Below the pieces are notes generated by a model, which had not been told where the DNA came from, did no database searches, and saw only the letters and a list, made by a program, of their open reading frames with translations. Source: Tissierellia bacterium (GTDB lineage Bacteria; Bacillota; Clostridia; Tissierellales; Tissierellaceae). From it: DNA of 33,129 bases. Positions 2,574 to 28,328 of this stretch are shown here, piece by piece (within the stretch, counting starts at the first letter, position 1; the number at the start of each line of letters is the position of its first letter). The translations under genes and the position numbers were made by a program. The stretch is from positions 1 through 33,129 of the forward strand of contig JAQVYQ010000016.1 in assembly GCA_028708575.1 (NCBI GenBank). The letters are read 5' to 3'.

Positions 2574-2592
2574 TGATTTGACGAATACATTT

Positions 2593-5151: not shown

Positions 5152-5153
5152 TT

Positions 5154-5188
5154 TATAAAGGGAGCGCGGGTTCCGCACTCCCTTTATA
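5154..5188 (+). terminator. Intra-operon hairpin (partial terminator or processing stem) after the SBP gene
   Basis: TATAAAGGGAG ... CTCCCTTTATA with inner GCGG/CCGC stem. Confidence 0.7.
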
Positions 5189-5208
5189 TTATATCGAGGT
5201 GAATAGAT

Positions 5209-6123: not shown

Positions 6124-6959
6124 TGGATTTACGTAAAGCAAATAGAATTTTATGCTACATTGTTTTAATTTTACTATCAATATTATGCCTCTTTTCCTTT
6201 TATCTATTGATTGTTAACTCTACAAGAGCACATTCACAAATACAAAAAGGATTTTCTTTTACTATTGGTGGCTTTTTTAACGCAAATCTAAAAAACGTTT
6301 TAGATAATGATGAGTTGCCTGTTATCAATGGTATTATCAATAGTTTTATAGTATCATCAGCCAGTGCAATTTTAGCAACATATTTTTCAGTATTAACTGC
6401 ATTTTCTATCCATACATATGATTTTAAATTTAAAAGAATATTTTTTACCTTTATTATGATGATAATGATGGTTCCAAATCAAGTATCTGCCCTAGGATTT
6501 ATGAGTTGGATGGGCAAATTGGATTTAATGGACTCTTTAATTCCTCTATTCTTACCATCAATCGCTTCCCCTATTGTCTTTTATTTTATGTTAGCATATA
6601 TGCAAAGCAATCTACCTAAAGCAATGGTTGAAGCAGCAAGAATCGATGGTGCCAGTGAGTTTAGAATATTTAATCAGATGGTACTTCCAATAATGAAACC
6701 AGCTATTGCTGTTCAAGCAATATTTACTTTTGTAAGTGCATGGAACAATTATTTTATACCAACATTAATTATAAGATCGGCAGAAAAAAAGACTCTACCA
6801 ATTCTTATAGCTCAACTTAGAAGTGCTGATTATCTTAAATTTGATATGGGGCAAGTATATATGCTTATATTCCTTGCAATTATACCGATTATTATCATAT
6901 ATATAATCCTATCTAAGTATATTGTTCGTGGAGTTGCCGTAGGAAGCGTAAAGGAATGA
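6123..6959 (+). CDS. Carbohydrate ABC transporter permease (MalG/UgpE-like)
   Basis: EAARIDGASEFRIFNQMVLPIMKP EAA loop; overlaps upstream permease stop. Confidence 0.92.
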   Translation: MDLRKANRILCYIVLILLSILCLFSFYLLIVNSTRAHSQIQKGFSFTIGGFFNANLKNVLDNDELPVINGIINSFIVSSASAILATYFSVLTAFSIHTYDFKFKRIFFTFIMMIMMVPNQVSALGFMSWMGKLDLMDSLIPLFLPSIASPIVFYFMLAYMQSNLPKAMVEAARIDGASEFRIFNQMVLPIMKPAIAVQAIFTFVSAWNNYFIPTLIIRSAEKKTLPILIAQLRSADYLKFDMGQVYMLIFLAIIPIIIIYIILSKYIVRGVAVGSVKE

Positions 6960-6963
6960 TAAT

Positions 6964-9345
6964 ATGAAATATGGATATTTTGACCAGGAAAAAAGAGAAT
7001 ATGTGATTACAAAACTTAATACCCCTGCTCCTTGGGTTAACTACCTAGGATCTCCTGAATATGGCGCTATTATATCTCATAATGCTGGAGGATATAGTTT
7101 CGTCAAAAGTGGTGCTAAAGGTAGGATTTTAAGATATAAATTTAATGATAATGATACTCCTGGTAGATATATTTATATAAGAGATGATGATTCAGAAGAT
7201 TTCTGGTCTGCTACATGGCAACCAGTTGGTAAGGGTGAAGACTATAAGGGCTCTTGTAGACATGGACTAGGATATACAACCATAGAGTCAGAGTATGCTG
7301 AAATAGAGTCTAAGACTACCTATTACGTACCTCTAAAGAAGACGTATGAGGTTTGGAGGCATATAATCAAAAACAATTCGACTAGGGAAAGAAATATTTC
7401 CATATTTGGATATGCTGAGTTTACAAATAATAGTGATTATGAACAGGATACTGTAAATCTGCAATATTCACAATTTATTTCAAGAACATACTATGAAAAT
7501 AATACAATAATACAAACCTTAAGCGAGAATTCTAATGAAGCAGTCTCTAGATTCTTTGCTCTTGTAGGGTCGCCTGTAACTTCTTATACTGGAGACAAGA
7601 AAAGTTTTATTGGTAATTATAGGTCTTATAAAGATCCAGAAGCTGTTGACAAAGGAAATTGTGGTAATAGTCTAAATTATAATTTAAACTCTTGTGGTGC
7701 TTTACATACTTCTATCTGCCTACAAGCAGATGAAGAGATAGAAATAGTTTTTATCCTAGGCCAGCATAATCAAAGTGATGCTCAGGATATAGTTAATCAA
7801 TATGAAATTAATAGTGATCTAAATAAAACGGATTCAGATTTAATTGAATTAAAAAAATACTGGAATAATAATTTAGCTAGTTTTAAGGTAGTGACTCCAG
7901 ATGAAGACTTTAACCATATGATTAATACTTGGAATGCCTATCAATGCTTTATAACTTTTACTTGGTCTAGGGCAGCATCCTTTACCTATTGCGGTCAAAG
8001 AAATGGATTTGGATATAGAGATACAGTACAAGATATTCAAGGAATAATACATCTTGCACCTGAATTAGCAAAAAAACAGTTAAATTTCATGATCTCGGCT
8101 CAAGTTGATAATGGCGGAGGGCTACCCCTAGTAAAGTTTAATCATACACCTGGTCATGAAGATACGCCAGATGATTATTCCTATGTTAAGGAAACAGGGC
8201 ATCCTTCTTATCGTGCCGATGATGCTTTATGGCTCTTTCCAACTATTAAAAAATATATTGGGGAAACAGGAGAATTAGCATATCTAGATGAGGTAATTCC
8301 CTATGCCAACACTGGAGTAGATACAGTCTACAATCATTTAAAGAAAGCCATAGAGTTTTCTTTAAATAGATTAGGTCCCAATGGGCTCCCAGCTGGTTTG
8401 CATGCTGATTGGAACGATTGCTTAAGACTAGGTAAGAATGGGGAGTCAACTTTTGTAGCTATGCAACTTTACCAAGCATTTGTTATAATGAGAGAGTTTG
8501 CAGATGCAAAATTTGATACTTCTTACTCTGAATATTTGTTAGATCAAAAATTGAAATTTGCAGATAAAATCCAAAGCCTATGTCTTGAAAAAGATAGATA
8601 TATTAGAGGAATTACAGAAGATGGTTTGAGGATAGGGTCAAAAGAAAATGAAGAAGCAAGTCTATGGCTCAATCCACAAAGTTGGGCAGTCTTATCTGGA
8701 CTTGCAAATATGGAAACCAGTGAAATAATACTAGAAAATGTCCATAAAAACCTAAACACAAAATTTGGTGCTAAATTAATGAGTCCTAGTTTCAAAAATA
8801 TAGACTTTAATGGAGCTTTAGCTAAAGTATACAATGGTTCCACCAAGGAAAATGGAGGAATATTTTTACAAACTCAAGGATGGCTAATTTTAGCAGAATC
8901 TTTAATGGGACATGGAAATCGGGCTTACCAGTATTATAAGGAAATCTCTCCAGCACATCAAAATCATATAGCTAATATAAGACAAATGGAGCCTTATGTA
9001 TATGGCCAATTCACTGAAAGTAGACCTAGTCCCTTTGAAGGTAGATCACATGTTCACTGGCTAACAGGTACTGCTTCCACAGTAATGGTATCTTGTGTTG
9101 AAGGAATTTTAGGTATTCGACCCGACATAAAGGGAATCCTTATCCAGCCTTCAATTCCTAGCAATTGGAGTAAGGTAAAAATCGAAAAAATATTTAGGGG
9201 TAAAAAATTGGTTATAGTTATTATAAATCATAATGAAAAAGAATCTGGATTTAAGGAAGTTTATTTAAATGGAGTTAAAGTTAAAAGCAATTACTTTTTA
9301 GAAGAGCAGTTAAGTAATTCTAATGAAATACTATATATTATGTAA
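6964..9345 (+). CDS. GH94 family phosphorylase, second paralog, specificity uncertain
   Basis: MKYGYFDQEKREYVIT N-terminus like the 11-2434 protein; GFGYRDTVQDIQGIIHLAPELA and GLHADWNDCLRLG motifs. Confidence 0.87.
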   Translation: MKYGYFDQEKREYVITKLNTPAPWVNYLGSPEYGAIISHNAGGYSFVKSGAKGRILRYKFNDNDTPGRYIYIRDDDSEDFWSATWQPVGKGEDYKGSCRHGLGYTTIESEYAEIESKTTYYVPLKKTYEVWRHIIKNNSTRERNISIFGYAEFTNNSDYEQDTVNLQYSQFISRTYYENNTIIQTLSENSNEAVSRFFALVGSPVTSYTGDKKSFIGNYRSYKDPEAVDKGNCGNSLNYNLNSCGALHTSICLQADEEIEIVFILGQHNQSDAQDIVNQYEINSDLNKTDSDLIELKKYWNNNLASFKVVTPDEDFNHMINTWNAYQCFITFTWSRAASFTYCGQRNGFGYRDTVQDIQGIIHLAPELAKKQLNFMISAQVDNGGGLPLVKFNHTPGHEDTPDDYSYVKETGHPSYRADDALWLFPTIKKYIGETGELAYLDEVIPYANTGVDTVYNHLKKAIEFSLNRLGPNGLPAGLHADWNDCLRLGKNGESTFVAMQLYQAFVIMREFADAKFDTSYSEYLLDQKLKFADKIQSLCLEKDRYIRGITEDGLRIGSKENEEASLWLNPQSWAVLSGLANMETSEIILENVHKNLNTKFGAKLMSPSFKNIDFNGALAKVYNGSTKENGGIFLQTQGWLILAESLMGHGNRAYQYYKEISPAHQNHIANIRQMEPYVYGQFTESRPSPFEGRSHVHWLTGTASTVMVSCVEGILGIRPDIKGILIQPSIPSNWSKVKIEKIFRGKKLVIVIINHNEKESGFKEVYLNGVKVKSNYFLEEQLSNSNEILYIM

Positions 9346-11196: not shown

Positions 11197-12570
11197 TTAT
11201 ATCACCTCGGATAAAATTACTTTGGTAATTGTTCCAACACCATACTTACTTGTTATATACATTTGTCCATTATGATTATCAATTACGTCTTTTATATAAG
11301 TCAATCCTAAACCAGTTGATTTTCTCCCACTAACCCCACTCTTTTGTATCTCTTTCATCAATTCTTCTTTTATACCAATTCCGTCATCACAAATATCTAT
11401 ATAAAGCTTACCTTCTTTAGAGTAAATATTAATCCAAATATGTCCATCTTCATTGTCCAAAGCATTAAAAGAATTATCTAAAATATTTATCATAGCTCTG
11501 GTAAAATTGACCTTATTAACATCAATAAGACTTTCTCTAGCATCATTATTGTATATAACCTTAGATGCATAAGGAAGATGAGAAATATTTGATAGAACAT
11601 AGTTAAAAAGTTCTTCACTAGTTAATGTGATCTTTTTATCTTTATATAATATTTCAGATATCATTTCGCTTTGATTATCTAAGGATGCTTCTATTCTTTC
11701 TAAATATTCTTGAATGGTTGAATCAGAACATTCATCCATCATCTTAATAACACTTATTAATGCAATACTTGATGTTAATGGAGTTTTAAGATCATGAACC
11801 AAGTTTTTCATCTCAGTATAATATCTAGTCTGTAATGAATCCATTCTATATTCATGAAGCTCTTGTTCAATTTTTTTATTCTTTTCTGTAGCAACTATTA
11901 TCCTATTTTCATCACTAACTAGTTTTGCTACTAATATTGAGCCAAATACAAAAACCACAAAAAATAATATTCCAAAAATGGTTAATATTTCTTCTCCATT
12001 TAAGAGACTTGCCACAAACTTAATATCTTGAGATGTTTCTCCCCTCCCAAATCTTAACATAGAAAGGCCTGGGATTATGTCTAACCATTGAACTCCAAAC
12101 AACAACAAAACGATTATTATAGCTTTTTTAAGAATAGAAACCTCTGAAATATCCATATATTCTAGAAACATTATTGCAAAAATTACTATAAAAGCAGGAA
12201 TACTTAAATCATACTTAATATTGTGTATTATATTAATTGATGAGTAAACAAGAGGAATTATGATTATAGCAATAAATCCTTTCACATATGGTATTTTTTT
12301 ATCCTTATATTCTAATTTTATGGATTCTGCAACTATAAATGTCCCTAAATAATGTGGAAGACCTCTTATACAGTTTAAAATTACTAAACTTGATGCACTT
12401 AATAATAATAATCCAGTGTCATTTTTTTCGATACTTTTAAATAATAAATCATAAGCATTAAAATTGTGAACATTAACAAATTTAGGAGCAATAAGTCCTA
12501 AAAATATTAATACTATACCGATAATTAGCTTATTCTTATCAAAAATAATTGAAACTTTGTTAATCCTCAT
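11197..12570 (-). CDS. Sensor histidine kinase with multi-TM N-terminus
   Basis: H-box LVHDLKTPLTSSIALI, N-box ILDNSFNALDNEDG, G-box DICDDGIGIKEE and GRKSTGLGLTYIKDVID; about 7 hydrophobic N-terminal segments. Confidence 0.9.
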   Translation of the reverse strand: MRINKVSIIFDKNKLIIGIVLIFLGLIAPKFVNVHNFNAYDLLFKSIEKNDTGLLLLSASSLVILNCIRGLPHYLGTFIVAESIKLEYKDKKIPYVKGFIAIIIIPLVYSSINIIHNIKYDLSIPAFIVIFAIMFLEYMDISEVSILKKAIIIVLLLFGVQWLDIIPGLSMLRFGRGETSQDIKFVASLLNGEEILTIFGILFFVVFVFGSILVAKLVSDENRIIVATEKNKKIEQELHEYRMDSLQTRYYTEMKNLVHDLKTPLTSSIALISVIKMMDECSDSTIQEYLERIEASLDNQSEMISEILYKDKKITLTSEELFNYVLSNISHLPYASKVIYNNDARESLIDVNKVNFTRAMINILDNSFNALDNEDGHIWINIYSKEGKLYIDICDDGIGIKEELMKEIQKSGVSGRKSTGLGLTYIKDVIDNHNGQMYITSKYGVGTITKVILSEVI

Positions 12571-13633
12571 AATTAGATCTTATCCTTTTTAATATAATAA
12601 GTAGACAAAAGCTCATTATAACTACAACAAATACTGTTTTTAATGGATAGGAATAAGTATAATAGACATTTCCTTCCCCTATTATAAAAGGAGTTGAAGG
12701 ATCTATTGCTAATCCAAATTCATTAGCTAAGTCTTTAATATTTATTATATTCATAACAGGAACATCTTTAGAAGAAAAAAACTGAACTAATCCCGTTTTT
12801 CTACTTGTATTAAAAAATTCGTCAATAATTAACCCATTAGATGCATTAATAGAATCAGTAGTATCTCCAAATGCAACTATATTACCGCCTATATTTATAA
12901 AACAGCTTATCCTATTTGAATTTCTAAAATATATATCTTTTCTTAGAGCAATATTACTCTCCAAATCTTCTTCTAATAAAATTGTTTTACCGTAATATCT
13001 CATTCTATCTAATATGATATTTAATTCATCAGGGTTCATATCTCTACCCATATCCCCTGAACCACCTGGGGATACTACAATAGTTTTATTTTTTATCAAT
13101 CCTTCATTAAATAGGTATTCTTCCATATCCAGATAAGTAAATTCAAGATTATTTCCACCCCAAGTTGATGCACCTACAGAAGTTATTATTATAGGATTAA
13201 CTTCCATAACCTGGCAAGCTACAATCGTTGCAATATTAAGAGCAGGAAAAGAACTAGAAAAACTGACTGCTACATAATCTCCTTTTTTTACTCCACCATC
13301 ATCTAACATATCTATTATTACAGCAGCGAAGTTTGGATTTGTAGACGTTCTCTTTGACTCTATACTACCAAGAGTTGTAGTAATTCCATTCATTTCTTCT
13401 CCAATTAAACCAGTCTTATTTATGTCTTCTACGCCTAACTCAATATTTCTTGATACTTTTTCCTCTTTGATTTTTTCACTGCATTCTTTCATAATACTTG
13501 CAGCTCTATACTTTTCTTCATATAGTGGATCTTTAACGAGACTTTTGCTGTCTGTAATAAATATGTAAAATACTACTAATAATAAGGTCATAATTAAAAT
13601 ATATTTATCATACTTGCTAAATCTCTTCTTCAT
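12560..13633 (-). CDS. pgsW: Poly-gamma-glutamate system protein (PgsW-like)
   Basis: Position directly after pgsC; N- and C-terminal TM helices around an extracytoplasmic domain. Family assigned from recall and context. Confidence 0.7.
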   Translation of the reverse strand: MKKRFSKYDKYILIMTLLLVVFYIFITDSKSLVKDPLYEEKYRAASIMKECSEKIKEEKVSRNIELGVEDINKTGLIGEEMNGITTTLGSIESKRTSTNPNFAAVIIDMLDDGGVKKGDYVAVSFSSSFPALNIATIVACQVMEVNPIIITSVGASTWGGNNLEFTYLDMEEYLFNEGLIKNKTIVVSPGGSGDMGRDMNPDELNIILDRMRYYGKTILLEEDLESNIALRKDIYFRNSNRISCFINIGGNIVAFGDTTDSINASNGLIIDEFFNTSRKTGLVQFFSSKDVPVMNIINIKDLANEFGLAIDPSTPFIIGEGNVYYTYSYPLKTVFVVVIMSFCLLIILKRIRSNYED

Positions 13634-14082
13634 AGCATTACACCATATACTAATAAGATATCTATTAATCTAACAATAATAGCAACAAAAATCATTGATG
13701 TTAAAGTTTTTAAAATCCCCTGTTTATTAACATCCTGGGCAATAAGTCCTGGTATTACAAATCCTATTGAAGTTGTTGCAAATAATAAGGAAAACGAGAA
13801 AAAACTTATAGCCTTTTGAATTGATTGACTTAACATTAGACTTGTAATAATAGTTATTCCAAATCTTCTTTTCCCATAGATTATTATGTGTTTTGATAGA
13901 ATATTTACAATTGCTAAAGTAATAATGCTTAGTAAAATTGTAGCAAGGATCCTATCTGGTTGATTTAAATATAATGCTATATATCCTGGTACTATAATGC
14001 CACCTGGTGAAACCTCAGTAATTTCATAATATATGATACTTATAATTACACCTAAAATAATTATTTTATACAATTGCATCAC
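13630..14082 (-). CDS. pgsC: Poly-gamma-glutamate biosynthesis protein PgsC/CapC
   Basis: 150 aa membrane protein; GIIVPGYIALYLNQPDRILATILLSIITL typical of PgsC; overlaps pgsB. Confidence 0.88.
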   Translation of the reverse strand: MMQLYKIIILGVIISIIYYEITEVSPGGIIVPGYIALYLNQPDRILATILLSIITLAIVNILSKHIIIYGKRRFGITIITSLMLSQSIQKAISFFSFSLLFATTSIGFVIPGLIAQDVNKQGILKTLTSMIFVAIIVRLIDILLVYGVML

Positions 14083-15211
14083 CTATATCTTCTATATAGT
14101 TTATTAAGTCTTGTCCATGGCCTACAATATTCCCAATAGCATATATAATTGAATCATTTTGAATATCATTTAAAATCTTAAAATCAAGATTTCCTATTGC
14201 TTTTATTAAATTACTGTCAATACCATACCTTACAAGTTTCCTTTTCATTGCATTTTTAAATTCCCCTGTTATCCAGATTTGATTAAAATCCAACTGCCTA
14301 ATAAGGTCAAGGTGCTGCTTCATCCTATCTGGTCTATCTGCTCTATTGTTTACGAGTATTATTAAATCCTTATTATTAAACAACCCTATTTTTTTTAATC
14401 TATTATATATAATAGATATTGAATCTGGATCATTTATGGCCAATCCATTAACAAATTTTATATCTATATTTCTATCATTATAGATTTGATATATTTTCAA
14501 TACTCCTGGATCTTTTTTATAGTTTTTCATTCTTTGTAATGCTGTATCCTTGTCTACCCCCAAGACTCTACAAACCTCTAAAGCTATGCTTACATTTTCC
14601 TTAAAATCTATGCCATAATCGCCGTCAATATCTTCTGCTAATATAACCTTTGAATTCTGTTTTTTACCCACTTGTCTATAATAGTCTATAAAGTAATCTT
14701 CAGGAGTTATAAACACACCATTATAGGGCATTACATTTCCCAAAGCAATTGCTACATCTTTAAGGCTTGGACCCATTTCTTCTAAATGATCTCTTCTAAC
14801 ATTTGTAACTACACTTATATCTGCATTTAAGATTTTGTGCTGAGATATATATTGCAGTTCGGGATTGACGGCCATACATTCAATAACCAGAAGATCTGCA
14901 CCTTGCATTGCTGCCTCTTTAATTATCTTTAGCTGTTCCTTAATATTTGCCCGACCTTTTCTTATAATTGGATTTTCAACTCCATTAGTATCAATAATTC
15001 TAGGACTTGTACCTGTTGTTTTACAGAACACCTTATATTGTCCACCTCTTAATGAGGCTTCTATTAATCTAGATGTAGAGGATTTCCCTCGGGTACCATT
15101 TACATGAATAATATGTTTGATTTTCTTTCTATATTTCTTATTTTGATATGATTCAAAAAATAAATATATTATATATAAAGAAAAAATAAAAATTATTGTA
15201 TTTATATACAT
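14066..15211 (-). CDS. pgsB: Poly-gamma-glutamate synthase PgsB/CapB
   Basis: N-terminal TM; Mur-ligase-like HVNGTRGKSSTSRLI; ECMAVNPELQ; VTNVRRDHLEEMG. Confidence 0.93.
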   Translation of the reverse strand: MYINTIIFIFSLYIIYLFFESYQNKKYRKKIKHIIHVNGTRGKSSTSRLIEASLRGGQYKVFCKTTGTSPRIIDTNGVENPIIRKGRANIKEQLKIIKEAAMQGADLLVIECMAVNPELQYISQHKILNADISVVTNVRRDHLEEMGPSLKDVAIALGNVMPYNGVFITPEDYFIDYYRQVGKKQNSKVILAEDIDGDYGIDFKENVSIALEVCRVLGVDKDTALQRMKNYKKDPGVLKIYQIYNDRNIDIKFVNGLAINDPDSISIIYNRLKKIGLFNNKDLIILVNNRADRPDRMKQHLDLIRQLDFNQIWITGEFKNAMKRKLVRYGIDSNLIKAIGNLDFKILNDIQNDSIIYAIGNIVGHGQDLINYIEDIGDAIV

Positions 15212-15223
15212 ATTATAATCATC

Positions 15224-15955
15224 CTATCTAAAATAGTTTATAATTCTTTCTATTACATATAAATGAAAACTTATTCTGTTTTCTAATTTATCATTCATAT
15301 TACTCTCAATAGTTAAAACAGGAATACCTAATCTATCTGATACTTCTTTGTTAAATGACCCATTCAGAGATGAAGTGTCTAACATAATTTTAGTAGAATC
15401 ATTATCAATTATATAATCATCATATACCTTCTCAGTTATTTCCATAAATTTGGAATCCATTAAATCTAAAATTAGTCCATTGGCTAAAAAACTACTGTCT
15501 TCATCATAATTTCGCTCCCACTCATGTAAATCCATTACTATATCTGGACTTTCTTTTTCCACCAGTTTAAAAATTTCATAAGCCATAACTTCAGTATCTG
15601 TCCCATTTGGTTTTCCAGGAAATGCTCTGTTTAAATCGCTCATATAATATGGGTTTCTTTCTTCATTTCTAACCGCTTCTGTATTTGATCTTGGTATTAT
15701 TATGAAATTAGCCCAATCCGGTTTAACCTCTATTATCCTTGCAGCAGCTTTAATGCCTCCAATTTCATTTCCATGAATACCACTTATTATCATAACTTTT
15801 ATTTTTCTACCATTATCAATATAGTATATGGGGCTTTCATATTTGGTACCTGCCATTATATAATAGTCCCTAAAATCATATATATGTGAAAAAGAATAAA
15901 TTAATAATACAATTAATAAAAAACATAAAATATAAAATAATTTATTTTTAATCAT
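15224..15955 (-). CDS. Membrane-anchored M14/AstE-AspA-like zinc carboxypeptidase
   Basis: Zn motif GIHGNE and later DLHEWE; N-terminal TM. ORF track starts at 15970; ATG at 15955 follows AAAGGA. Confidence 0.78.
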   Translation of the reverse strand: MIKNKLFYILCFLLIVLLIYSFSHIYDFRDYYIMAGTKYESPIYYIDNGRKIKVMIISGIHGNEIGGIKAAARIIEVKPDWANFIIIPRSNTEAVRNEERNPYYMSDLNRAFPGKPNGTDTEVMAYEIFKLVEKESPDIVMDLHEWERNYDEDSSFLANGLILDLMDSKFMEITEKVYDDYIIDNDSTKIMLDTSSLNGSFNKEVSDRLGIPVLTIESNMNDKLENRISFHLYVIERIINYFR

Positions 15956-15979
15956 AAGGATTCCTTTCATTCAATAAAA

Positions 15980-16001
15980 CCCCGACAATAATTCATCGGG
16001 G
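15980..16001 (-). terminator. Hairpin between the two M14 genes
   Basis: Minus strand CCCCGATGAATTATTGTCGGGGTTTTATTG. Confidence 0.7.
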
Positions 16002-16013
16002 ATTCTATTTATA

Positions 16014-17153
16014 TTAACTAAGAGGGTTTAGCATAAATCCAACACCTTTTTCTTGAATTTCTTCATAGTCAGGTAAATTAGTTATAATTATTGGATTATT
16101 TTCATTCTTTGCTGTGTATACTGAGGTGATTTCCTTTATTGTTTCTAAATGTCTTCCAACTCTTTCTTCTAACGGATGTCCATTTTCATCAAATGGTACA
16201 TATAGATTTCCACGTTTTGCAGCATTTACATACATTTTATCTTTACCTTTTATAACTAAATCTTCATCTGTTTTTCCTCTTAATCTGCCTTGAGCTGCAT
16301 TTGCTGTTTCTGCTAATAATGCTAAAGTATCAGTGTAATCCCCTAATTCTCTATGAGTAAGTCCTCTTAGATTAGTAGGTGATGGCTCAAGAGCTATATC
16401 TACACCTTTCAATTGCAAATTAATAGTAACCACCGATGCTATTCCCATTGCATATTCGTGGGATACTATTGCATTAATTACAGGGTATTCTGGTGAAGCT
16501 TCATGTAAATCAAGTGTTATATCGATATTTTCCACTTTTATCATTTCAGTTATTGCATATGTTACTTTTTCTGTAAATGTGCCATCTGATCTTCCTGGAT
16601 ATGCACGATTTAGATTTCTAGTTTCACTACCTGATAACTGTTGACCTGAAGCTGCATGAACATATACATCAGGATCTGGCCATTGATCAATTGGATTAGT
16701 GGCTCTTGACCCATATCTAAATTCTCTTTCTCCATACTCTGTTTCAATAGTAAACCTTTGTGGTGAGCCTTCTTGTGCGTCATTATGAGAAAAAGCACTA
16801 TTATTTGCTCGTGGAATTATATACAAAGTTCCTGAATCAATTTTAGCAGTTTCAATTAATGATATTGCTGCCATGTACCCACCTGGCTCATTAGCATGTG
16901 TTCCCCCCAATACCAACATAGAGCCACCTGCTTTATCACCTTCTAGTATATATATTTCTGCATCCCCATTTGTCCCTTTCAATTGTGGAAAATAATCACT
17001 TAGCATTTTTTGCATGGTAACTCCTGGTCCTGCAACAATCACCTCAGGAATATGCATGCTTGAAAATGATTTTCCTGCAATAAATGAAACAACTAGAGCT
17101 ATAATTAAAAAAATAACTGAAGCCGTTTTTTTATTATCCATTAAAATCATCAC
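16014..17153 (-). CDS. Membrane-anchored M14/AstE-AspA-like zinc carboxypeptidase
   Basis: Zn motif GGTHANEPGG and LDLHEASPEYP; N-terminal TM KKTASVIFLIIALVVSFIAG. Confidence 0.8.
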   Translation of the reverse strand: MMILMDNKKTASVIFLIIALVVSFIAGKSFSSMHIPEVIVAGPGVTMQKMLSDYFPQLKGTNGDAEIYILEGDKAGGSMLVLGGTHANEPGGYMAAISLIETAKIDSGTLYIIPRANNSAFSHNDAQEGSPQRFTIETEYGEREFRYGSRATNPIDQWPDPDVYVHAASGQQLSGSETRNLNRAYPGRSDGTFTEKVTYAITEMIKVENIDITLDLHEASPEYPVINAIVSHEYAMGIASVVTINLQLKGVDIALEPSPTNLRGLTHRELGDYTDTLALLAETANAAQGRLRGKTDEDLVIKGKDKMYVNAAKRGNLYVPFDENGHPLEERVGRHLETIKEITSVYTAKNENNPIIITNLPDYEEIQEKGVGFMLNPLS

Positions 17154-18682: not shown

Positions 18683-19312
18683 CTACTTAAATGCATTTAC
18701 TAGTGGATTCATTGCATCAGCTATACTAGTTACTGTATCCATTGGGATACTATTACTTGAAGCTATACCCGTAAATAATCCATCATTATTTCCATCTTCA
18801 ACCACTATTAGGTAATCAGCTTGACTACAAACAGGCTCAATAAATTTATCAGATAATTCGCCTCTTCTACTTTCACCACCTATATGCATAGCGATTATTT
18901 TCACATCATTTGTTTTAGCCGCATCTACTACAGCTAATGCTCTATTTAATTCTTGATTTTCATCAATCCCTGCTGCTCCTAATCCTTTAGAGCTTCCTCC
19001 GACTGCTAAAATTAATGTCTTAGCATCACCTATATTTTCAGCTTCTACTAATTTATCCATTGTATATTCTAAACCTGCATTTTCTAATAAGGCCTTTACC
19101 ATTTCTACATCTGCACTTTGACCAACTGAAGTTAAAAGGGTTGGATGTTCAGCAAATGCTTCAGTCAATACCTGAATTTGACCATTTTCTACAGCTTCTG
19201 TTGATTCTGTGCCTCCAGTATTAGCTGGTTCAGATGAACCACATCCTACTAGTGATAAGACCAGTAAAATGGTAATTATACTAAACAATGTATTCTTTTT
19301 AAATCTAATCAT
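18683..19312 (-). CDS. DUF6305-like lipoprotein
   Basis: Lipobox LSLVGCGSS; HPTLLTSVGQSADVEMVKALLENAGLEY and GGSSKGLGAAGID motifs; family name from recall. Confidence 0.7.
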   Translation of the reverse strand: MIRFKKNTLFSIITILLVLSLVGCGSSEPANTGGTESTEAVENGQIQVLTEAFAEHPTLLTSVGQSADVEMVKALLENAGLEYTMDKLVEAENIGDAKTLILAVGGSSKGLGAAGIDENQELNRALAVVDAAKTNDVKIIAMHIGGESRRGELSDKFIEPVCSQADYLIVVEDGNNDGLFTGIASSNSIPMDTVTSIADAMNPLVNAFK

Positions 19313-19354
19313 TAATTATCACTCCTAAGCCTATCCTTCTAATATGTTATCGTA

Positions 19355-21121
19355 TTAGAATCCAACTGCCTGACCATCTCTTCTTGGATCTCCAGCTCCA
19401 TGTAGCAATCCTTCTTCCATAATTATACATTGGGCTCCCCCAAAGTATGCATCCAATTCCCCTCTAATATCAATTTCATGACCCATTGCTTCTAACTCTT
19501 TTAATACATCTTTATCCATCCTAGATTCAACAGACAATGTGCCTCTCTGGTTAAACATTCTTGGAGCATTAACTGCATCTTGAATATCCATATCATGGTC
19601 TATTACATTGCTAATTATTTGTGCAACAGATCCAATAATTCTAGTTGCTCCTGGTGAACCTAAAGTCATAAATGGCTCTCCATCCTTCAATACAAGAGTT
19701 GGAGTCATACTACTTAATGGTCTCTTCCCTGGCTCAACTGAATTTGATGTCCCCGGTTCTGCATTAAAATCATCCATCTCATTATTTAGAATAAAACCTC
19801 TTCCAGGTACACCCACACCTGAACCAAAGAAGTAATTTATAGTCTTTGTAACTGCCACCATATTCCCTTCCTTATCCATTACTGAGAAGTGTGTTGTACT
19901 ACCACTTTCATACTTATATGGATCTCCAAAGGACACTTTTTCAGCTGCTTTTGTTTTGTCAATTCCTTCCGCTAATACCTTAGCATAATCCTTAGATGCA
20001 AGTCCTGCCAATGGTACATCAACAAAATCAGTATCAGCCATGTATTTGCCTCTATCAGCAAACATCAATTTAGATGCCTCTGACCATAAATGTAGGCCTT
20101 CAGTTGTATTGTGCCCTGCGCCTTTCACATCAAAGTTTTCTAGTATATTGAGTAATTGAATTACATGTGTTCCACCTGAGCTTGAAGGTGGTGCAGATAT
20201 TATTTCGTATCCTCTATATGTTCCTTTTACTGGTTCTCTCATTTTCAATTCATAATTTGCTAAATCTTCAAGTGCAAAAATACCTCCTGCATCATTAGCT
20301 GCTTTTACAATATCTTCTGCAACTTGACCTTTATAGAAACCATCTTTCCCCTCTTTAACAATAATTTTTAATGTTTCAGCTAAATCAGGATTTTTTATTG
20401 TATCTCCTGCTTCAAATGGAAGTCCATTTTTTAAGTAAATTTCCTTTGTTGCATCAAATTTATTTATTTTTTCAAAATTATCTTGTATTATACCAACAAA
20501 ATTATCAGTAACTAAGAAACCATTTTCTGCAATATCTATTGCAGGTTGCATTACTTCTTCTCTTGACATTGATCCATATGTTTCAAGAGCAGTTAATAAT
20601 CCAGCAACTTCCCCAGGAATACCTGCAGCCTTGCCACCTACAGTTTTTCCTTCATTAACTACTTTTCCTTCTTCATCTAGTTCATACATATCTGCCGTTG
20701 CATTTCCAGGAGCTACTTCTCTAAAATCAAAGAACGCCTCTTCCCCTGTTTCTGCAAATCTAATAATCATAAAACCACCACCGCCAAGTCCTGATGCATT
20801 TGGTTCTACTACTCCAAGTGCAAAAGCTGTGGCTACTGCAGCATCAATGGCGTTTCCACCATTTTTCATGATTTCAATGCCTACTTCAGAAGCTTCTGGC
20901 TTAGCGGTTGCTAGCATACCATTCTTACCAGTATCACTTCTATCCATATTTACGACAGGCTTTTCAGGTTCTTTTGGAGTTTCAACTGCAACACTTTCCT
21001 GTTGGGCAACAGGTTCTTCAACATTAGTAGCTGGCTCACTAGTTTGACATCCTACTAGAGAAAATACTAAAGCTAAGGCTAATAACAAAGATAATAATTT
21101 TAAATTTTTCTTATTTCTCAT
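19355..21121 (-). CDS. ggt: Gamma-glutamyltransferase, lipoprotein form
   Basis: Lipobox FSLVGCQTS; GGNAIDAAVATAFALGVVEPNASGLGGGGFM; catalytic-Thr region GSTTHFSVMDKEGNMVA; PLSSMTPTLVLKDGEPFMTLGSPGATRI. Confidence 0.93.
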   Translation of the reverse strand: MRNKKNLKLLSLLLALALVFSLVGCQTSEPATNVEEPVAQQESVAVETPKEPEKPVVNMDRSDTGKNGMLATAKPEASEVGIEIMKNGGNAIDAAVATAFALGVVEPNASGLGGGGFMIIRFAETGEEAFFDFREVAPGNATADMYELDEEGKVVNEGKTVGGKAAGIPGEVAGLLTALETYGSMSREEVMQPAIDIAENGFLVTDNFVGIIQDNFEKINKFDATKEIYLKNGLPFEAGDTIKNPDLAETLKIIVKEGKDGFYKGQVAEDIVKAANDAGGIFALEDLANYELKMREPVKGTYRGYEIISAPPSSSGGTHVIQLLNILENFDVKGAGHNTTEGLHLWSEASKLMFADRGKYMADTDFVDVPLAGLASKDYAKVLAEGIDKTKAAEKVSFGDPYKYESGSTTHFSVMDKEGNMVAVTKTINYFFGSGVGVPGRGFILNNEMDDFNAEPGTSNSVEPGKRPLSSMTPTLVLKDGEPFMTLGSPGATRIIGSVAQIISNVIDHDMDIQDAVNAPRMFNQRGTLSVESRMDKDVLKELEAMGHEIDIRGELDAYFGGAQCIIMEEGLLHGAGDPRRDGQAVGF

Positions 21122-21292: not shown

Positions 21293-21505
21293 TTAAATTC
21301 TCTTTTTTATATCATCAAGAGTATCTTCTATTGCATCTCTAGCTTTATCTATGCCTTTCTCTGCTTTCGACATAGTTTTGTCTAGTATCTTTTCTGCTTT
21401 GTCACTGTTTTTATCAAAAACGTCTTCAACTTTGTCCATTGAATTTTCGTATATATCTTCTGCTTTATTTATGACTTTATCAAACCTTTTTTTAAAATTA
21501 TCCAT
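21293..21505 (-). CDS. 70-aa amphipathic protein of tandem 11-residue repeats
   Basis: Start at ATG 21505 after AAGGAG (track start 21616 is too long); DNFKKRFDKVI/NKAEDIYENSM/DKVEDVFDKNS/DKAEKILDKTM/SKAEKGIDKAR/DAIEDTLDDIK. Confidence 0.75.
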   Translation of the reverse strand: MDNFKKRFDKVINKAEDIYENSMDKVEDVFDKNSDKAEKILDKTMSKAEKGIDKARDAIEDTLDDIKKRI

Positions 21506-21639
21506 AATAATATTCTCCTTATAACTTACTAACTTTTTATTATTATATCCTAAGATTAGAAATTTAGAATATATCATATGGATAAATATAGTAGTAATTA
21601 CCTGTGACTTTATCAATGGTTTCTAAATATAGTTTCTAT

Positions 21640-22224
21640 CTAGTTATCAGATGGTAATAAAAACTCAGTAATTATCACTGGTAAATTGGCACTTATAATC
21701 GTAATTTTCTCTTCAATTTCTGTTTCCAAAACAAATAATGTAAATCCATCAATTTCTCTTTTTTCATCTTGGCTGTGTAAATTTAAGACAAAATCATTCA
21801 TAGAAAATATAGTTACCACTTGTGAACCCCTAAGTGTATATTGGTCTCCTTTATTTAGGATTTGCATCTTTGCTTGATTCCCACTTTTCACAATAAAATT
21901 GTAATCTCTACAATCCAGAGTGTTTTCAGAAAATGTACTCCAAGATCCATCAAAGTATTCAACTTGATATTTGTCTAATTCTCTTTTATATAATCCCTGG
22001 TGAGAAAGGTTTAACTTCCCTTCTAAAGGAAGAATATATCTTTGGTAATTGCTAAAGTCTGAGAATTTTGATTCAGTTGATGTAAATGTAGCTGAGGAAA
22101 CTCTCCATAAAAAGTCTTTTTCAGAAAAGCTTGCATCTTCTGGATATATTATTAATTGAGTTGTCTCTCCACCAGCCCATTTTGTAGTTATGAAATCTTC
22201 TTTTTTAATAATTTTTTCTTTCAT
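21640..22224 (-). CDS. HutD/Ves family protein
   Basis: TTKWAGGETTQLIIYPEDASFSEKDFLWRVSSATF motif characteristic of HutD/Ves cupins. Confidence 0.82.
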   Translation of the reverse strand: MKEKIIKKEDFITTKWAGGETTQLIIYPEDASFSEKDFLWRVSSATFTSTESKFSDFSNYQRYILPLEGKLNLSHQGLYKRELDKYQVEYFDGSWSTFSENTLDCRDYNFIVKSGNQAKMQILNKGDQYTLRGSQVVTIFSMNDFVLNLHSQDEKREIDGFTLFVLETEIEEKITIISANLPVIITEFLLPSDN

Positions 22225-22248: not shown

Positions 22249-22812
22249 TTAGTCGATTTTCAACTCTTTTAGCGCATTACTGAATTCATTGATTTTAGAT
22301 TCATCTTTTACTAGTGGAAGATTTGCTTCTATATTCATTAAGCATCCGTTTGTTCCAATCTTTGCAAGTTCATATCCTATTACTAAATCTGAATAACAGT
22401 TTGGATTTGATTTCCCATCTAATTCCCTACCTATATCATATACTCTTTTACAAAGTTTTGCATTTTCCATAGGTGCTGTTGCTCCTACCACACCTGCATT
22501 TGCAATGGCTTGTTTTCTTGCCTCTTTCTCTATTTCTGTTTCCTTAGGTAATTTGTATGCATCCCTAATCACTCCATAAGCTTTAGCATCATCTACTATA
22601 CCTACAAGTAATTTTTGTCTTATTTCTTCTAATTCCTTTGCCAATTCCAATTGTCTTTCAGCAGGAATTCCAAAATCTTTCTTAGTTGATAGTTTGCATA
22701 CCATACCTATTAATCCACAGGCTTTTGCTCCTGCTAATGCTGATGCACTTCCTCCACCAACCGTTACATCATCTGTGTCCAAAATTAATTCTAATACATC
22801 TTTGTAATCCAT
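22249..22812 (-). CDS. fchA: Cyclodeaminase/cyclohydrolase family protein (formimidoyl-THF cyclodeaminase, FchA-like)
   Basis: DTDDVTVGGGSASALAGAKACGLIGMVCKLS; adjacent to FtcD. Confidence 0.85.
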   Translation of the reverse strand: MDYKDVLELILDTDDVTVGGGSASALAGAKACGLIGMVCKLSTKKDFGIPAERQLELAKELEEIRQKLLVGIVDDAKAYGVIRDAYKLPKETEIEKEARKQAIANAGVVGATAPMENAKLCKRVYDIGRELDGKSNPNCYSDLVIGYELAKIGTNGCLMNIEANLPLVKDESKINEFSNALKELKID

Positions 22813-22912: not shown

Positions 22913-23812
22913 TTATTGTTCGTCTAACAATCTTTTTTCTAGTATTTGCTCTATATCAAAATTTTCTACCTGTAAATAATACTCAGCAACATCAAGTAAT
23001 GACTTCATAGGAACAGTTCCTATAACTTCACTTCCTACTACATTTACTCCATATCTTCTTGCTTCCATTTTAACCATTTCAAAGGCTTGATATACTGATG
23101 TTTTTTCATAGTTTACTAGGTTCATTGAAACTTGAGTTTGATTTCTTTCTTCTAATTTTAAGCCTATAGCTTTTACATATCTCAATCCACCGCCAATATG
23201 TCTTACTGTTTTTGCAATTTTATCTGCAATTTCTACATTTGGTGTGTCTAGATTTATATTGAATGCTACTAGTGGTACTCTTGCCCCTACAGCTGTACAA
23301 CCATTTTTCACATTCATCTCTTGAGGTCCAAAATCTGGTTTCCAGTTTTCTTCTTTAATCTTTTCAAAGAAGCCTTCATATTGTCCTTTTCTTACACTTG
23401 CTAGATTCTTTCTATCAGCTTTTGTTGCTGCATCTTCGTATAGATATACTGGAATTCCCCAGCTTCCTAATTCAACACCTACTTCTTTTGCAATTTCAAT
23501 ACATTCATCTATGGTTACATTAGATACAGGTGTAAATGGAATAACATCTGTTGCTCCCATTCTAGGATGAGCTCCTTCATGTTTTGACATATCAATAAGC
23601 TCAGCGGCTTTTCTTGCTGTATTTATAGCAGCTTCTCTAACTTGCTCTGGAGAGCCTATCATTGTAAGCACTGTTCTATTGTGATCTTTATCAGATGAAT
23701 AGTCTAAAATTGTTATACCTTCAATTTTTCTAGCTTCATCAATAATTTGCTCTACTATCACTTCGTCTCTACCTTCACTAAAATTTGGTACACATTCCAT
23801 TAATTTTCTCAT
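22913..23812 (-). CDS. ftcD: Glutamate formimidoyltransferase
   Basis: MRKLMECVPNFSEGRDEVIVEQI; HNRTVLTMIGSPEQV; HEGAHPRMGATDVIPFTPV. Confidence 0.94.
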   Translation of the reverse strand: MRKLMECVPNFSEGRDEVIVEQIIDEARKIEGITILDYSSDKDHNRTVLTMIGSPEQVREAAINTARKAAELIDMSKHEGAHPRMGATDVIPFTPVSNVTIDECIEIAKEVGVELGSWGIPVYLYEDAATKADRKNLASVRKGQYEGFFEKIKEENWKPDFGPQEMNVKNGCTAVGARVPLVAFNINLDTPNVEIADKIAKTVRHIGGGLRYVKAIGLKLEERNQTQVSMNLVNYEKTSVYQAFEMVKMEARRYGVNVVGSEVIGTVPMKSLLDVAEYYLQVENFDIEQILEKRLLDEQ

Positions 23813-23836: not shown

Positions 23837-25075
23837 TTATAACAAATTTTCTACAAAAGTTTTTATAAACCAAATTGTTTGTGGTTGATAAATGATGTCT
23901 ACTAAAAACGCTCCAACTATTGGAACTATCATCATAGCCTTTCTACTCATTCCATATTTCTCGTTAACAGCTGTCATATTAACTATTGCTGAAGGAGTAG
24001 CTCCTAGCCCATGACCACAAAGACCAGCACACATAACAGCAGCGTCGTAATTGCTTCCTAATATTTTGAAAACTACAAAATAAGCTAGTATTACCATCAT
24101 CACTACTTGAGCTAAAACCACAAATAAAACTCCACCTATTAAACCAGATAATTCCCAGAGCTTTAAAGTCATAAGTGCTAATGATAAATAAAGATTTAAC
24201 ATAACATTACCAATTTCATCTACTAATGAGAAATCAAATTTATAGAAATTGAATCTTTCATTTAAATTTCTAAGTATTACAGCAACAAACATTGCTCCTA
24301 CATAAGTAGGGAATCCCATGTTTATTATATTACTTATCCAACCAGATATAATAGTTCCTAAAGCCATACTTATAATAATTGCAGATACATTTTTCATTAT
24401 ATCTAGGGAACTAAGCTTGTCACCTGAACTTACATTAATATCTGTAACAGAAGTATCAAATGCTTCATCTGTATCAGGTCTTAAATTGTTTTTTTCTATA
24501 AGTCTTCTCCCTAATGGTCCACCTACTAATACTGCAGATATAAGACCAAAAGTTGCTGCTGCAGCTCCAACTAATGGAGCAACATCATATCCCATTTCAG
24601 CAAAAGTATTTCCATAAGAAAGTGCTGCACCGTGTCCGCCAATCATCGCAATAGCACTTGCAAGTAATGCATATGGTGCTTCAAGTCCTATTGCCTTAGA
24701 AACTGCAATTCCTAATGTATTTTGCAATATGGAAATAACACCAGCTATGAGCCAGTAAATAATTAATAGCTTTCCACCCTTTTTAAGCAATTTAAAACTT
24801 GCCCCAAGTCCTACTGTTGTAAAGAATGCTAGCATGAAAGTCTCTTGGAAAATGTTTTCAAAATTAAAATTAAATGAATTAGTTGAATATCCAACCCAAG
24901 TGATAAACATAAAGATAAATCCACCAACAACTGGCGCTGGGATACAATATTTATCGAGTACTTTTATTTTATCTTTTGAAAAATACCCCAAAAGTAATAA
25001 TATCGCAGCAAAAGCTAAAGTTACAGCTGAATTTACATTAATATTAGTAATTCCATCAATAAGTTCAAAGTTCAT
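23837..25075 (-). CDS. gltS: Sodium/glutamate symporter
   Basis: MNFELIDGITNINVNSAVTLAFAAILLLLGYFSKDKIKVLDKYCIPAPVVGGFIF; GGHGAALSYGNTF; CAGLCGHGLGATPSAIVNM. Confidence 0.93.
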   Translation of the reverse strand: MNFELIDGITNINVNSAVTLAFAAILLLLGYFSKDKIKVLDKYCIPAPVVGGFIFMFITWVGYSTNSFNFNFENIFQETFMLAFFTTVGLGASFKLLKKGGKLLIIYWLIAGVISILQNTLGIAVSKAIGLEAPYALLASAIAMIGGHGAALSYGNTFAEMGYDVAPLVGAAAATFGLISAVLVGGPLGRRLIEKNNLRPDTDEAFDTSVTDINVSSGDKLSSLDIMKNVSAIIISMALGTIISGWISNIINMGFPTYVGAMFVAVILRNLNERFNFYKFDFSLVDEIGNVMLNLYLSLALMTLKLWELSGLIGGVLFVVLAQVVMMVILAYFVVFKILGSNYDAAVMCAGLCGHGLGATPSAIVNMTAVNEKYGMSRKAMMIVPIVGAFLVDIIYQPQTIWFIKTFVENLL

Positions 25076-25165
25076 AATAACCTCCTCTTAATTTTTTAAA
25101 TATTTTAACACCTATACTAATACTTTTCCTAACCTCCCTATTATATTCATATATCTATATGATAT

Positions 25166-25181
25166 TGCATAATTCATGCCA
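25166..25181 (-). promoter_or_regulatory. Sigma-54 (-24/-12) promoter upstream of gltS
   Basis: Minus strand TTGGCATGAATTATGCAAT; GG and GC separated by 10 bp as in consensus TGGCACGN4TTGCW. Confidence 0.85.
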
Positions 25182-25234
25182 ACTTAATAAAATTCAAACA
25201 ATGTGCATTTAAAGGGATAGGGAACTTGATAAAA

Positions 25235-25249
25235 TTTGCACCATGCAAA
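25235..25249. promoter_or_regulatory. Candidate enhancer site 1 for the NtrC-family activator
   Basis: TTTGCACCATGCAAA (TTTGCA-N3-TGCAAA dyad), about 87 bp upstream of the inferred TSS. Confidence 0.65.
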
Positions 25250-25274
25250 ATATGCATAAAACAACCCTGCATAT

Positions 25275-25289
25275 TTTGCATGGTGCAAA
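25275..25289. promoter_or_regulatory. Candidate enhancer site 2 for the NtrC-family activator
   Basis: TTTGCATGGTGCAAA; centre 40 bp from site 1 (about four helical turns). Confidence 0.65.
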
Positions 25290-25304
25290 TTTTGCAGGGT
25301 TGTT

Positions 25305-26648
25305 TTATAGATTATACTCTTTAATCTTGTACCTTAATGTTCTTTCCGCTATACCTAAACTATCAGCAGTCCATTTTCTGTTTTGATTATTCTTTTCAAG
25401 GGCAAACTTTATAACCTTCTTCTCTATTTCCTTCATGTTTTCGCCTTCATAAATCTTTACATGGTTGTTAGTAGAATTATTAGAATTACTTGCCATTTCT
25501 TGTGATTCTATATGCAATAAATCATGCTTTATATATTCTGAAGTATTTAACAGTACAGCTCTTTGAATAATATTCTCTAACTCTCTTACATTGCCTTTAA
25601 AAGTATAATTACTAAGGATTTCATAAGCCTCATCAGTAATCCCCTTAACATTTTTATCGAAAGAAATATTATATTTATCAATGAAATAAGCCACTAAATA
25701 TTTTAAGTCTTCCATCCGTTCTCTTAGAGGAGGAGCTACAATATTGATTACATTTATTCTATAATAAAGATCTTCCCTAAATTTTCCTGCCTTTACTTCC
25801 TTTTCTAAATCTCTATTTGTAATGCAAATAATCCTCACATCAACTTCATTTGTTTTTGAATCGCCAATTTGTCTTACTTCTTTTTCCTGTAGAAACCTCA
25901 ATAGCTTTGATTGGAGCCTTAAATCCATTTCCCCTATTTCATCTAGTAAAAGGGTTCCTTTATCAGCTCTTCTTATAACGCCAACTTCATCTTTATAAGC
26001 ACCTGTAAAGGCGCCTTTCTTATATCCAAAAAGCTCACTTTCCAAAAGTTCCCCAGGCATAGCAGCACAATTTAAGGTTACAAATGGCTTATCAGCTCGA
26101 TTACTTGTTCTGTGAATTTTCTGAGCTATAAGTTCTTTTCCAGTACCGCTTTCTCCTGTTATTAATATAGTAGCATTGGTGTCTTTAATTTTGTTTATTA
26201 AATCATTGATTTGTTTTATTGGATATGATTCACCAATTATGTCCTTCCTTATATGTCCCTCTAAACTATTAATTCTCTGATACATCTGTAGTTTTTCATT
26301 GGCTGTGTTTAACAATAATATAAGTTGATCATTATCAATTGGCTTTGTTATAAAGTAATAAGCACCTGACTTAATAGCATCTATGGAATTTTCTATGGTA
26401 GAATAAGCCGTCATAATAATGATAATAGCATTTGGTTCGAATTGAAGAAATTTCTTCATCAGCTCTAGTCCGCTTCCCTCTTTTAATCTTAAATCTAGTA
26501 GGACCAAGTATATTTTTTCGTTTTTAAATACCTCCAAAGCTTCTGAAGAATTCTCACATGTATATATTTCAAATCTATCCTCTAAAAGAAATTTAAGTGA
26601 TCTTAATATTTTAGTTTCATCATCAACAATTAACAATTTACTCTTCAT
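25305..26648 (-). CDS. NtrC-family sigma-54-dependent response regulator
   Basis: Receiver LLIVDDETKIL; AAA+ GESGTGKEL; GAFTGA; LLLDEIGEMDL; C-terminal HTH WTADSLGIAERTLRYKIKEY. Confidence 0.95.
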   Translation of the reverse strand: MKSKLLIVDDETKILRSLKFLLEDRFEIYTCENSSEALEVFKNEKIYLVLLDLRLKEGSGLELMKKFLQFEPNAIIIIMTAYSTIENSIDAIKSGAYYFITKPIDNDQLILLLNTANEKLQMYQRINSLEGHIRKDIIGESYPIKQINDLINKIKDTNATILITGESGTGKELIAQKIHRTSNRADKPFVTLNCAAMPGELLESELFGYKKGAFTGAYKDEVGVIRRADKGTLLLDEIGEMDLRLQSKLLRFLQEKEVRQIGDSKTNEVDVRIICITNRDLEKEVKAGKFREDLYYRINVINIVAPPLRERMEDLKYLVAYFIDKYNISFDKNVKGITDEAYEILSNYTFKGNVRELENIIQRAVLLNTSEYIKHDLLHIESQEMASNSNNSTNNHVKIYEGENMKEIEKKVIKFALEKNNQNRKWTADSLGIAERTLRYKIKEYNL

Positions 26649-28224
26649 TTAATTCACCTTTTTTTATCTTTAATATAATACTCATACCCTTTTGTTTTCC
26701 ATCACTTTTCGCGGATATAGTTACTTTGTTTTCTTCTACTATTTGCTTAACAACAAACATTCCAACTCCATTACCATATTCCTTAGTTGTGTAAAAAGGC
26801 TCAAAAATATATTGAATATCATCTTTATTCATACCATATCCATTATCTTTAAAAGTCAATACAATATCTTCTTCAGTCTTTATTGCTGATATTATGATAA
26901 TAGGGTAGTCAACTTCTTTTACAGCATCCAAACTATTTAGCAAAATATTTAGTACTACCTGCTTAAATTGAGATCTATCAAATTCTATATAATATCTTTT
27001 ATCAATATCAATATTTAGATGAATATCTCTTATTTGTAATTTAACAAGATTGATTGTTTTTATTAATTCCTTATATAGATTTAATTCTTCTATGACTGGT
27101 TTCTTTGGAGATGAATATTCCATAAATTCCTTAATAAGGCTATCAACCCTATCTATTTCTTCAGGGATATCCTCAGTGGCGGCTAGCATAAACTCCTTGT
27201 CATCTGATTTATTTTTCATCTGGCTAGTATATATTTTTATTGATGTTAGAGGATTTCGTATTTCATGAGCAAGTGATGATATAATTCTATCCATAAACTG
27301 CAATTTATCATAATGTCTAAGCTCATTTATAAGGAGCCTCTGCTCCTCTGTTTTTTCTTCTATTATTATTTTTAATTTATTATTGAATTCTTTTATTACA
27401 TATATCAAAGCTATTAATCCCAAACAAATTCCAATAGTGATTTTCCATAAAATCTCATATTGTGTCTTTGTGTTTTTTATAGGACTTCCGAACCACTTTC
27501 TATATAACGAATCATACATTCCGCTTTTCTGAATTTCAGAAATCCCTATGTTGAGTTTTTGCAAGAGAAGTACATTATCTTTATCTACAGCTATGGAATA
27601 CTTTTGTTCATTAAGACTTTCACCAACTATCTTGACAAGTTCAATTGAATTTCTTTCCTTACATAAATAATTAACAGTTAAGGTATTACCTATAAGTGCA
27701 TCAACTTCTCCATACAATAAAGCTTTCAAAGCATCATGAAGTGAATCATGCTGAATTATTGTTACATTATCAATTTTATTTATTTCTTCATATATAATAT
27801 CTTCTTTTTGTAAAGCAATTATTTTGCCTGCTAAATCTCTCTCATTATTTATTTTTGTATTACTATTCAATACAAATATTGACTGAGAACTGACTAAAAG
27901 TGACTCTGAAAACAAAAAGCTCCCTTTTCTTTCTTCTGATTCTTTCATCCCCTGGATTATATCAGCTTGTCCATTACTAATGGAATTATAAGCATCTTCC
28001 CATTTCATTGGATAAAACTCAAATTTCATTCCAGTTACAAGGCTGATCGCCTTAATTACATCAACATTAAATCCCTTGTAGGATTCATCTAAATCCACAT
28101 ATTCATATGGTGGAAAATTTTCATCCCCAGCAACCCTATAAGTTTCTGAATCTGCATAAGAAGGTTGAGCTAATGTAATATTCAATAAAATACATAGTAT
28201 AAATATTGTCTTTTTAAAATTCAT
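26638..28224 (-). CDS. Sensor histidine kinase with periplasmic SBP_bac_3 domain
   Basis: YRVAGDENFPPYEYVDLDESYKGFNVDVIKAI SBP3 domain; HEIRNPLTSIK H-box; NILLNSLDAV; signal peptide. ORF track starts at 28263; ATG at 28224 follows GAGG. Confidence 0.92.
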   Translation of the reverse strand: MNFKKTIFILCILLNITLAQPSYADSETYRVAGDENFPPYEYVDLDESYKGFNVDVIKAISLVTGMKFEFYPMKWEDAYNSISNGQADIIQGMKESEERKGSFLFSESLLVSSQSIFVLNSNTKINNERDLAGKIIALQKEDIIYEEINKIDNVTIIQHDSLHDALKALLYGEVDALIGNTLTVNYLCKERNSIELVKIVGESLNEQKYSIAVDKDNVLLLQKLNIGISEIQKSGMYDSLYRKWFGSPIKNTKTQYEILWKITIGICLGLIALIYVIKEFNNKLKIIIEEKTEEQRLLINELRHYDKLQFMDRIISSLAHEIRNPLTSIKIYTSQMKNKSDDKEFMLAATEDIPEEIDRVDSLIKEFMEYSSPKKPVIEELNLYKELIKTINLVKLQIRDIHLNIDIDKRYYIEFDRSQFKQVVLNILLNSLDAVKEVDYPIIIISAIKTEEDIVLTFKDNGYGMNKDDIQYIFEPFYTTKEYGNGVGMFVVKQIVEENKVTISAKSDGKQKGMSIILKIKKGELNEE

Positions 28225-28328
28225 ATTAATCCTCATTAATAAATATTTTCTTTTTAGCCTCAAAGATATTATATCATATAAGTAATCAAATCCTCTTTCT
28301 TAATATTGGACTGTCTATATTAAAAAAC

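Follow-up and report, generated by a model that had tools for sequence, protein, structure and literature searches.

The locus upstream of gltS in this Tissierellia bacterium raises the question of how a gltS-ftcD-fchA-hutD operon is switched on and which compound its sensor recognizes. An earlier note had described it as a glutamate-responsive sigma-54 circuit in which a sensor kinase and an NtrC-family regulator drive these four genes. We analyzed the locus within the whole 33,129-nucleotide stretch of DNA (contig JAQVYQ010000016.1; hereafter, the window) and compared it with the genomes of relatives. The genes concerned, all on the minus strand, are as follows.

21640-22224, minus strand: HutD family protein (Pfam HutD only)
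22249-22812, minus strand: FchA-type formimino-THF cyclodeaminase (Pfam FTCD_C only)
22913-23812, minus strand: FtcD, glutamate formimidoyltransferase, the second copy of the genome (TIGR02024)
23837-25075, minus strand: GltS-family Na+ symporter, proposed importer of formiminoglutamate or glutamate (TIGR00210 above cut-off)
25305-26648, minus strand: NtrC/AtoC-type response regulator, sigma-54 activator with GAFTGA and HTH_8 (Pfam)
26638-28263, minus strand: membrane sensor histidine kinase with SBP_bac_3, a TM helix, HisKA, and HATPase_c (Pfam)

The gltS, ftcD, fchA, and hutD assignments were confirmed with NCBIfam and Pfam models (fchA and hutD by Pfam only). GltS scored 328.9 on TIGR00210, the sodium/glutamate symporter equivalog (cut-off 310.75), and FtcD scored 482 bits on TIGR02024 (cut-off 221), which places a formiminoglutamate-cleaving enzyme in the operon; a sequence search of the PDB with GltS found no relative. 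The regulator contains Response_reg, Sigma54_activat, AAA_lid_14, and HTH_8 domains, and GAFTGAY is present in its translation, which makes it an NtrC-family activator of the response-regulator type and agrees with the NtrC-family regulator described earlier. Likewise, the SBP_bac_3 sensor domain claimed for the kinase was found by Pfam together with HisKA and HATPase_c. The ATG near 28224 is likely the true kinase start, and the SBP_bac_3 domain, which is predicted to be extracellular, resembles amino-acid binding proteins of the PDB (best, 4zv1 AncQR, E=1.7e-34). AtoC and AtoS were the top-scoring NCBIfam models for the regulator and the kinase, respectively; however, both scores were far below the equivalog cut-offs, and no acetoacetate genes lie near the system. 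The rpoN gene, which the earlier note had required, is encoded in the 2.0-Mb genome.

Other genes of the window were also annotated. A poly-gamma-glutamate-type cluster at 12560-17153 on the minus strand encodes a Mur-ligase-like protein, CapC, a TIGR04332 system protein, and two AstE/AspA-family proteins, and it is followed by gamma-glutamyltransferase and DUF6305 genes at 18683-21121. These genes and DctM were rejected as members of the system, having no homologs in related loci. Between hutD and the gamma-glutamyltransferase gene lies a small charged repeat-like protein (21293-21616, minus strand), whose only match, MT0933_antitox, was sub-threshold. Two GH94 phosphorylase-family genes (11-2440, minus strand; 6964-9345, plus strand) enclose a LacI-type regulator and apparent sugar ABC transporter genes, as read from the translations (window 11-9345).

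The DNA between the regulator gene and gltS contains four elements.

25166-25181, minus strand: sigma-54 -24/-12 promoter TGGCATGAATTATGCA, predicted +1 about 25155 (pattern scan)
25231-25256, minus strand: promoter-proximal inverted copy with the second dyad, 25235-25249 (26-bp inverted repeat)
25256-25308, minus strand: terminator-shaped hairpin at the regulator 3' end, holding the enhancer core, with an outer stem and a T-run on the gltS side (inverted repeat, covariation)
25268-25296, minus strand: conserved putative enhancer core TGCA-N5-TGCA-N3-TGCA-N5-TGCA, including the dyad 25275-25289 (order-wide pattern search)

TGGCATGAATTATGCA, at 25181-25166 on the minus strand, was the only place in the window that matched TGGCAYN5WTGCW without a mismatch; the 19-mer quoted in the earlier note corresponds to 25182-25164. 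It is a TTGGCA...TTGC-like box with GG-N10-GC spacing and fits the clostridial sigma-54 consensus TTGGCATN5TTGCT (PMC6615313). Setting the C of GC at -12 gives the predicted +1 about 25155. When up to two mismatches were allowed, 60 matches were seen in the window versus 52 expected by chance, so the weaker -24/-12 matches carry no meaning. The element was kept in all close orthologs with gltS downstream, and the -24/-12 match claimed at 25166-25181 is real.

Two perfect TTTGCA-N3-TGCAAA dyads, TTTGCACCATGCAAA at 25235-25249 and TTTGCATGGTGCAAA at 25275-25289, are present as previously described, 40 bp apart and centered 87 and 127 bp upstream of 25155. They constitute the two arms of a single perfect inverted repeat of 26 bp (25231-25256 / 25268-25293) and so did not originate as independent sites. 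Interleaved with it is another inverted repeat (25256-25280 / 25284-25308), which has the distal dyad as its loop region and overlaps the regulator stop codon. This arrangement leaves three readings open, namely, an enhancer, a terminator, or an RNA switch. In the 2.0-Mb genome, the proposed scan for the dyad gave only three exact matches, two of them in this promoter region; the third (G000 C47:29306 = L106:5307), between a tRNA-Arg-like region and a transporter gene end, was rejected as a regulatory site because it has no promoter context. The proximal dyad is window-specific: orthologs do not have it, and two same-genus loci show a partial TTTTTGCATGGT there. It is best read as a putative recent inverted duplication, which may serve as an additional binding site. 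Conservation was limited to the distal dyad (25275-25289), so that the idea of two independent conserved sites was rejected, and the two-dyad control site of the earlier note stands in its promoter-distal half.

Comparison with relatives bears on the enhancer and terminator readings. Regulator orthologs, counted at E<=1e-120, were found in 21 of the 249 genomes of the order Tissierellales; the relatives carry the names Soehngenia (a member of Tissierellales), Gudongella, and Tissierellia. The usual order in close orthologs is kinase, regulator, palindrome, sigma-54 promoter, gltS, ftcD, fchA, and hutD. The palindrome, CCCTGCA-N5-TGCA-N3-TGCA-N5-TGCAGGG, is built around the distal dyad as its core. 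The strict core pattern had 10 matches in the 249 genomes, one per genome and all in this system upstream of gltS, whereas the reversed control pattern had none. The distance from the element center to the GG of -24 was 102-105 bp in all 15 close orthologs, five rearranged ones included, and 72-80, 97, and 112 bp in more distant systems. Four of the rearranged genomes have the order gltS-ftcD-fchA-(hutD)-kinase-regulator, and the fifth has the regulator on a different contig. Each of the five has the palindrome, the T-run, and -24/-12 upstream of gltS behind another gene, and no palindrome was found in the DNA after the regulator. The element thus stays with gltS when the regulator is elsewhere, indicating that it belongs to the gltS promoter and is not merely the terminator of the regulator gene. 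In L114, where the regulator copy no longer has gltS, only a decayed element is left, and gltS relatives without a nearby regulator (G110, G111, G228; L132-L134) have neither the element nor -24/-12. Judged from these patterns, the palindrome is very probably the enhancer of the gltS promoter.

The overlap of the window palindrome with the regulator stop codon and its terminator shape would also fit a transcription terminator of the regulator gene only, with the regulator binding elsewhere. We consider this very unlikely, and the rearranged genomes, with the palindrome at gltS and none after the regulator, led us to reject it. Furthermore, the core sequence is invariant, whereas a terminator requires pairing alone; the spacing to the promoter is fixed; and the strict form occurs nowhere else in the order (249 genomes).

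The putative enhancer has the shape of an intrinsic terminator, a G+C-containing stem followed by a T-run. In an alignment of 18 elements (A1), which is the basis of the following pair and T-run counts, the four TGCA pairs (columns 14-17 with 42-45) were identical in 18/18, a sign of recognition by a protein. Compensatory changes were seen in the outer stem (9, 3, 6, 2, and 2 two-sided change cells in columns 8-12), and the covariation of the whole structure was not reached by any of 500 shuffles. The T-run on the gltS side was longer than the opposite A-run in 15 elements and shorter in 1 (P=5e-4), and the hairpin energies ranged from -18 to -35 kcal/mol. A covarying stem combined with a one-sided T-run is what marks an RNA terminator directed at gltS. 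Drift in protein specificity is another way in which both halves of a palindrome can change together; the adjacent one-sided T-run argues for RNA instead. A simple rule-based terminator scan of the window called no terminator at the hairpin, since its loop rule is narrow and the T-run here forms part of the paired stem. The fused form was retained after relocation, and Bacillales homologs have it with a different sequence, GGCGAAAATTGCCGTGCGGCAATTTTCGCC. These results suggest that an enhancer and an intrinsic terminator appear to be fused in one palindrome.

Alternatively, the interleaved hairpins might act as an RNA terminator/antiterminator switch that decides whether transcripts of the regulator gene continue into gltS. 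The fold of lowest predicted energy is the 26-bp hairpin (25231-25293; z=-5.4), which excludes the terminator hairpin. However, its second arm is window-specific and absent in relatives and would be transcribed only past the terminator, and an Rfam search of the window, hairpin included, gave no match. We regard this switch as very unlikely, and the fused enhancer and terminator is preferred.

The same kinase/regulator clade was also seen with GltS, ABC, or TRAP transporters in L009, L010, L012, L013, L014, and L124. Five of these loci (L010, L012, L013, L014, and L124) have a palindrome of terminator shape at a distance of 72-80 bp from the -24 element. In L012 (position 3853) and L013 (position 3940), a further -24/-12 match lies in front of the kinase gene, which suggests putative autoregulation in Bacillales.

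FtcD and FchA act on formiminoglutamate (FIGLU), the last intermediate of histidine breakdown, in which HutH, HutU, and HutI are followed by FtcD/FchA or HutG. The operon has the last-step enzymes FtcD and FchA in common with this pathway (HutG being the alternative), along with HutD. It differs in having no hutH, hutU, or hutI and in having its own transporter and sensor, and it coexists with a separate ftcD-hutI-hutU cluster in the same genome. The operon FtcD is mostly 85-91% identical to the FtcDs of orthologous operons and 58% identical to the FtcD of its own hut cluster. Similarly, GltS is 66-90% identical to most operon orthologs and ~36-43% identical to paralogs not beside ftcD, one of which is in the window genome. 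In G227 (99% complete), the operon was kept, and there was no hutH, hutU, or above-cut-off hutI. In Bacillales, the same kinase-regulator pair precedes HutG and a GltS-type transporter (L010, L012) or occurs with an ABC transporter and a HutG-like enzyme (L009, L013); three of these four loci exceeded the TIGR01227 (HutG) cut-off, and L009 was slightly below it. Two unrelated transporters (GltS, ABC) and two unrelated enzymes (FtcD, HutG) thus have formiminoglutamate as their only common point. On the basis of these associations of the regulator pair, and of the second ftcD beside the hut cluster, FIGLU is most likely the ligand and substrate, and the operon would serve FIGLU import and catabolism.

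The binding pocket of the kinase was compared with glutamine- and arginine-binding relatives. It retains the Arg (GMK..EER) that we take to be the carboxylate-binding residue of this fold. It has a Thr-to-Lys change and an Asp-to-Asn change (DALIGN versus DAVVTD), the latter conserved across close orthologs; the replaced Asp is presumably the residue that holds the alpha-amino group of the ligand in those relatives. As a pointer to an altered ligand, the Asp-to-Asn change is suggestive only, and it does not single out FIGLU, since the formimino group is positively charged.

It could also be argued that the kinase responds to glutamate, or to some other ordinary amino acid, outside the cell and that the operon serves glutamate uptake, with ftcD-fchA in an incidental one-carbon role. 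GltS passes the sodium/glutamate symporter model, so glutamate is possible as its cargo, and the functionally similar Pseudomonas AauSR system answers acidic amino acids (PMC7962211). Even so, FtcD or HutG recurs with the regulator pair whatever the transporter, mere glutamate uptake would hardly call for a second ftcD in addition to the one of the hut cluster, and a GltS paralog encoded in this genome stands without an adjacent ftcD. The conserved pocket changes, Thr-to-Lys and Asp-to-Asn, also speak against a plain glutamate sensor, which we therefore consider a somewhat doubtful alternative. Glutamate is probably not the signal. The dedicated sigma-54 two-component circuit for gltS-ftcD-fchA-hutD is strongly supported by comparative genomics, but we find no support as such for the label 'glutamate-responsive'. 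N-formimino-L-glutamate is the compound to which the genomic associations point, and a conserved Asp-to-Asn change is present in the sensor.

Taken from comparative sequence analysis, the sensor-regulator pair very probably turns on a single operon that imports and degrades a glutamate derivative. In the proposed model, the outer domain of the kinase would sense the extracellular derivative, most likely N-formimino-L-glutamate, and the kinase would phosphorylate its NtrC-type partner. The phosphorylated regulator would dock on the four-TGCA palindrome, centered about 103 bp from the -24 element, and activate RpoN polymerase at one promoter for gltS-ftcD-fchA-hutD. GltS would bring in the substrate, and FtcD and FchA would transfer the formimino group to tetrahydrofolate, releasing glutamate and ammonia. 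As the enhancer would also be an intrinsic-terminator hairpin, upstream transcription would end there, and the promoter would stay silent until activated. As a point against the model, FIGLU could in most genomes also arise inside the cell from histidine degradation. We hold the full model, with a FIGLU-sensing kinase, an enhancer-terminator, and an RpoN-driven operon, to be probable.

The functionally closest known system is AauS/AauR, through which RpoN controls acidic amino acid uptake in Pseudomonas (PMC7962211). Both systems have a two-component sigma-54 activator, an adjacent acidic-amino-acid transporter promoter, and upstream palindromic sites (PMC7962211). However, AauR recognizes TTCGG-N4-CCGAA and targets the aatJQMP ABC transporter (PMC7962211), whereas the window system has a four-TGCA palindrome within a hairpin and targets gltS with FIGLU-degrading genes; it has neither that site nor an acidic amino-acid ABC transporter and is thus not an AauSR member. 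The sigma-54 regulons of the Clostridiales reconstruction (Nie et al. 2019, PMC6615313) have the same promoter consensus as the window system and likewise Fis-type HTH activators, mostly with one operon per activator and for amino-acid catabolism. Only about 10% of the activators described there have receiver domains, unlike the window regulator; Table 1 (39 activator groups) lists no gltS-ftcD-fchA-hutD target, and terminators are not mentioned in the main text. Literature searches found no FIGLU transporter or sensor and nothing relevant on terminator-enhancer fusions.

If this reading is right, a regulon would be added beyond Table 1 of the clostridial sigma-54 reconstruction (PMC6615313), and formiminoglutamate would be named as a plausible nutrient signal with candidate sensor and transporter families. 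It would also provide a cis-element in which one palindrome is both terminator and enhancer, which matters for annotation, as an enhancer shaped like a terminator would be dismissed as a terminator, and which bears on how sigma-54 promoters stay silent. More tentatively, with the chances slightly against it, Bacillota may have a class of sigma-54 enhancer-terminators that keep a fixed distance to the promoter and move as one unit through rearrangement. Such elements would act as promoter insulators and may link transcription from upstream to the occupancy of the enhancer; in this locus, they would serve dedicated extracellular FIGLU sensing and scavenging.
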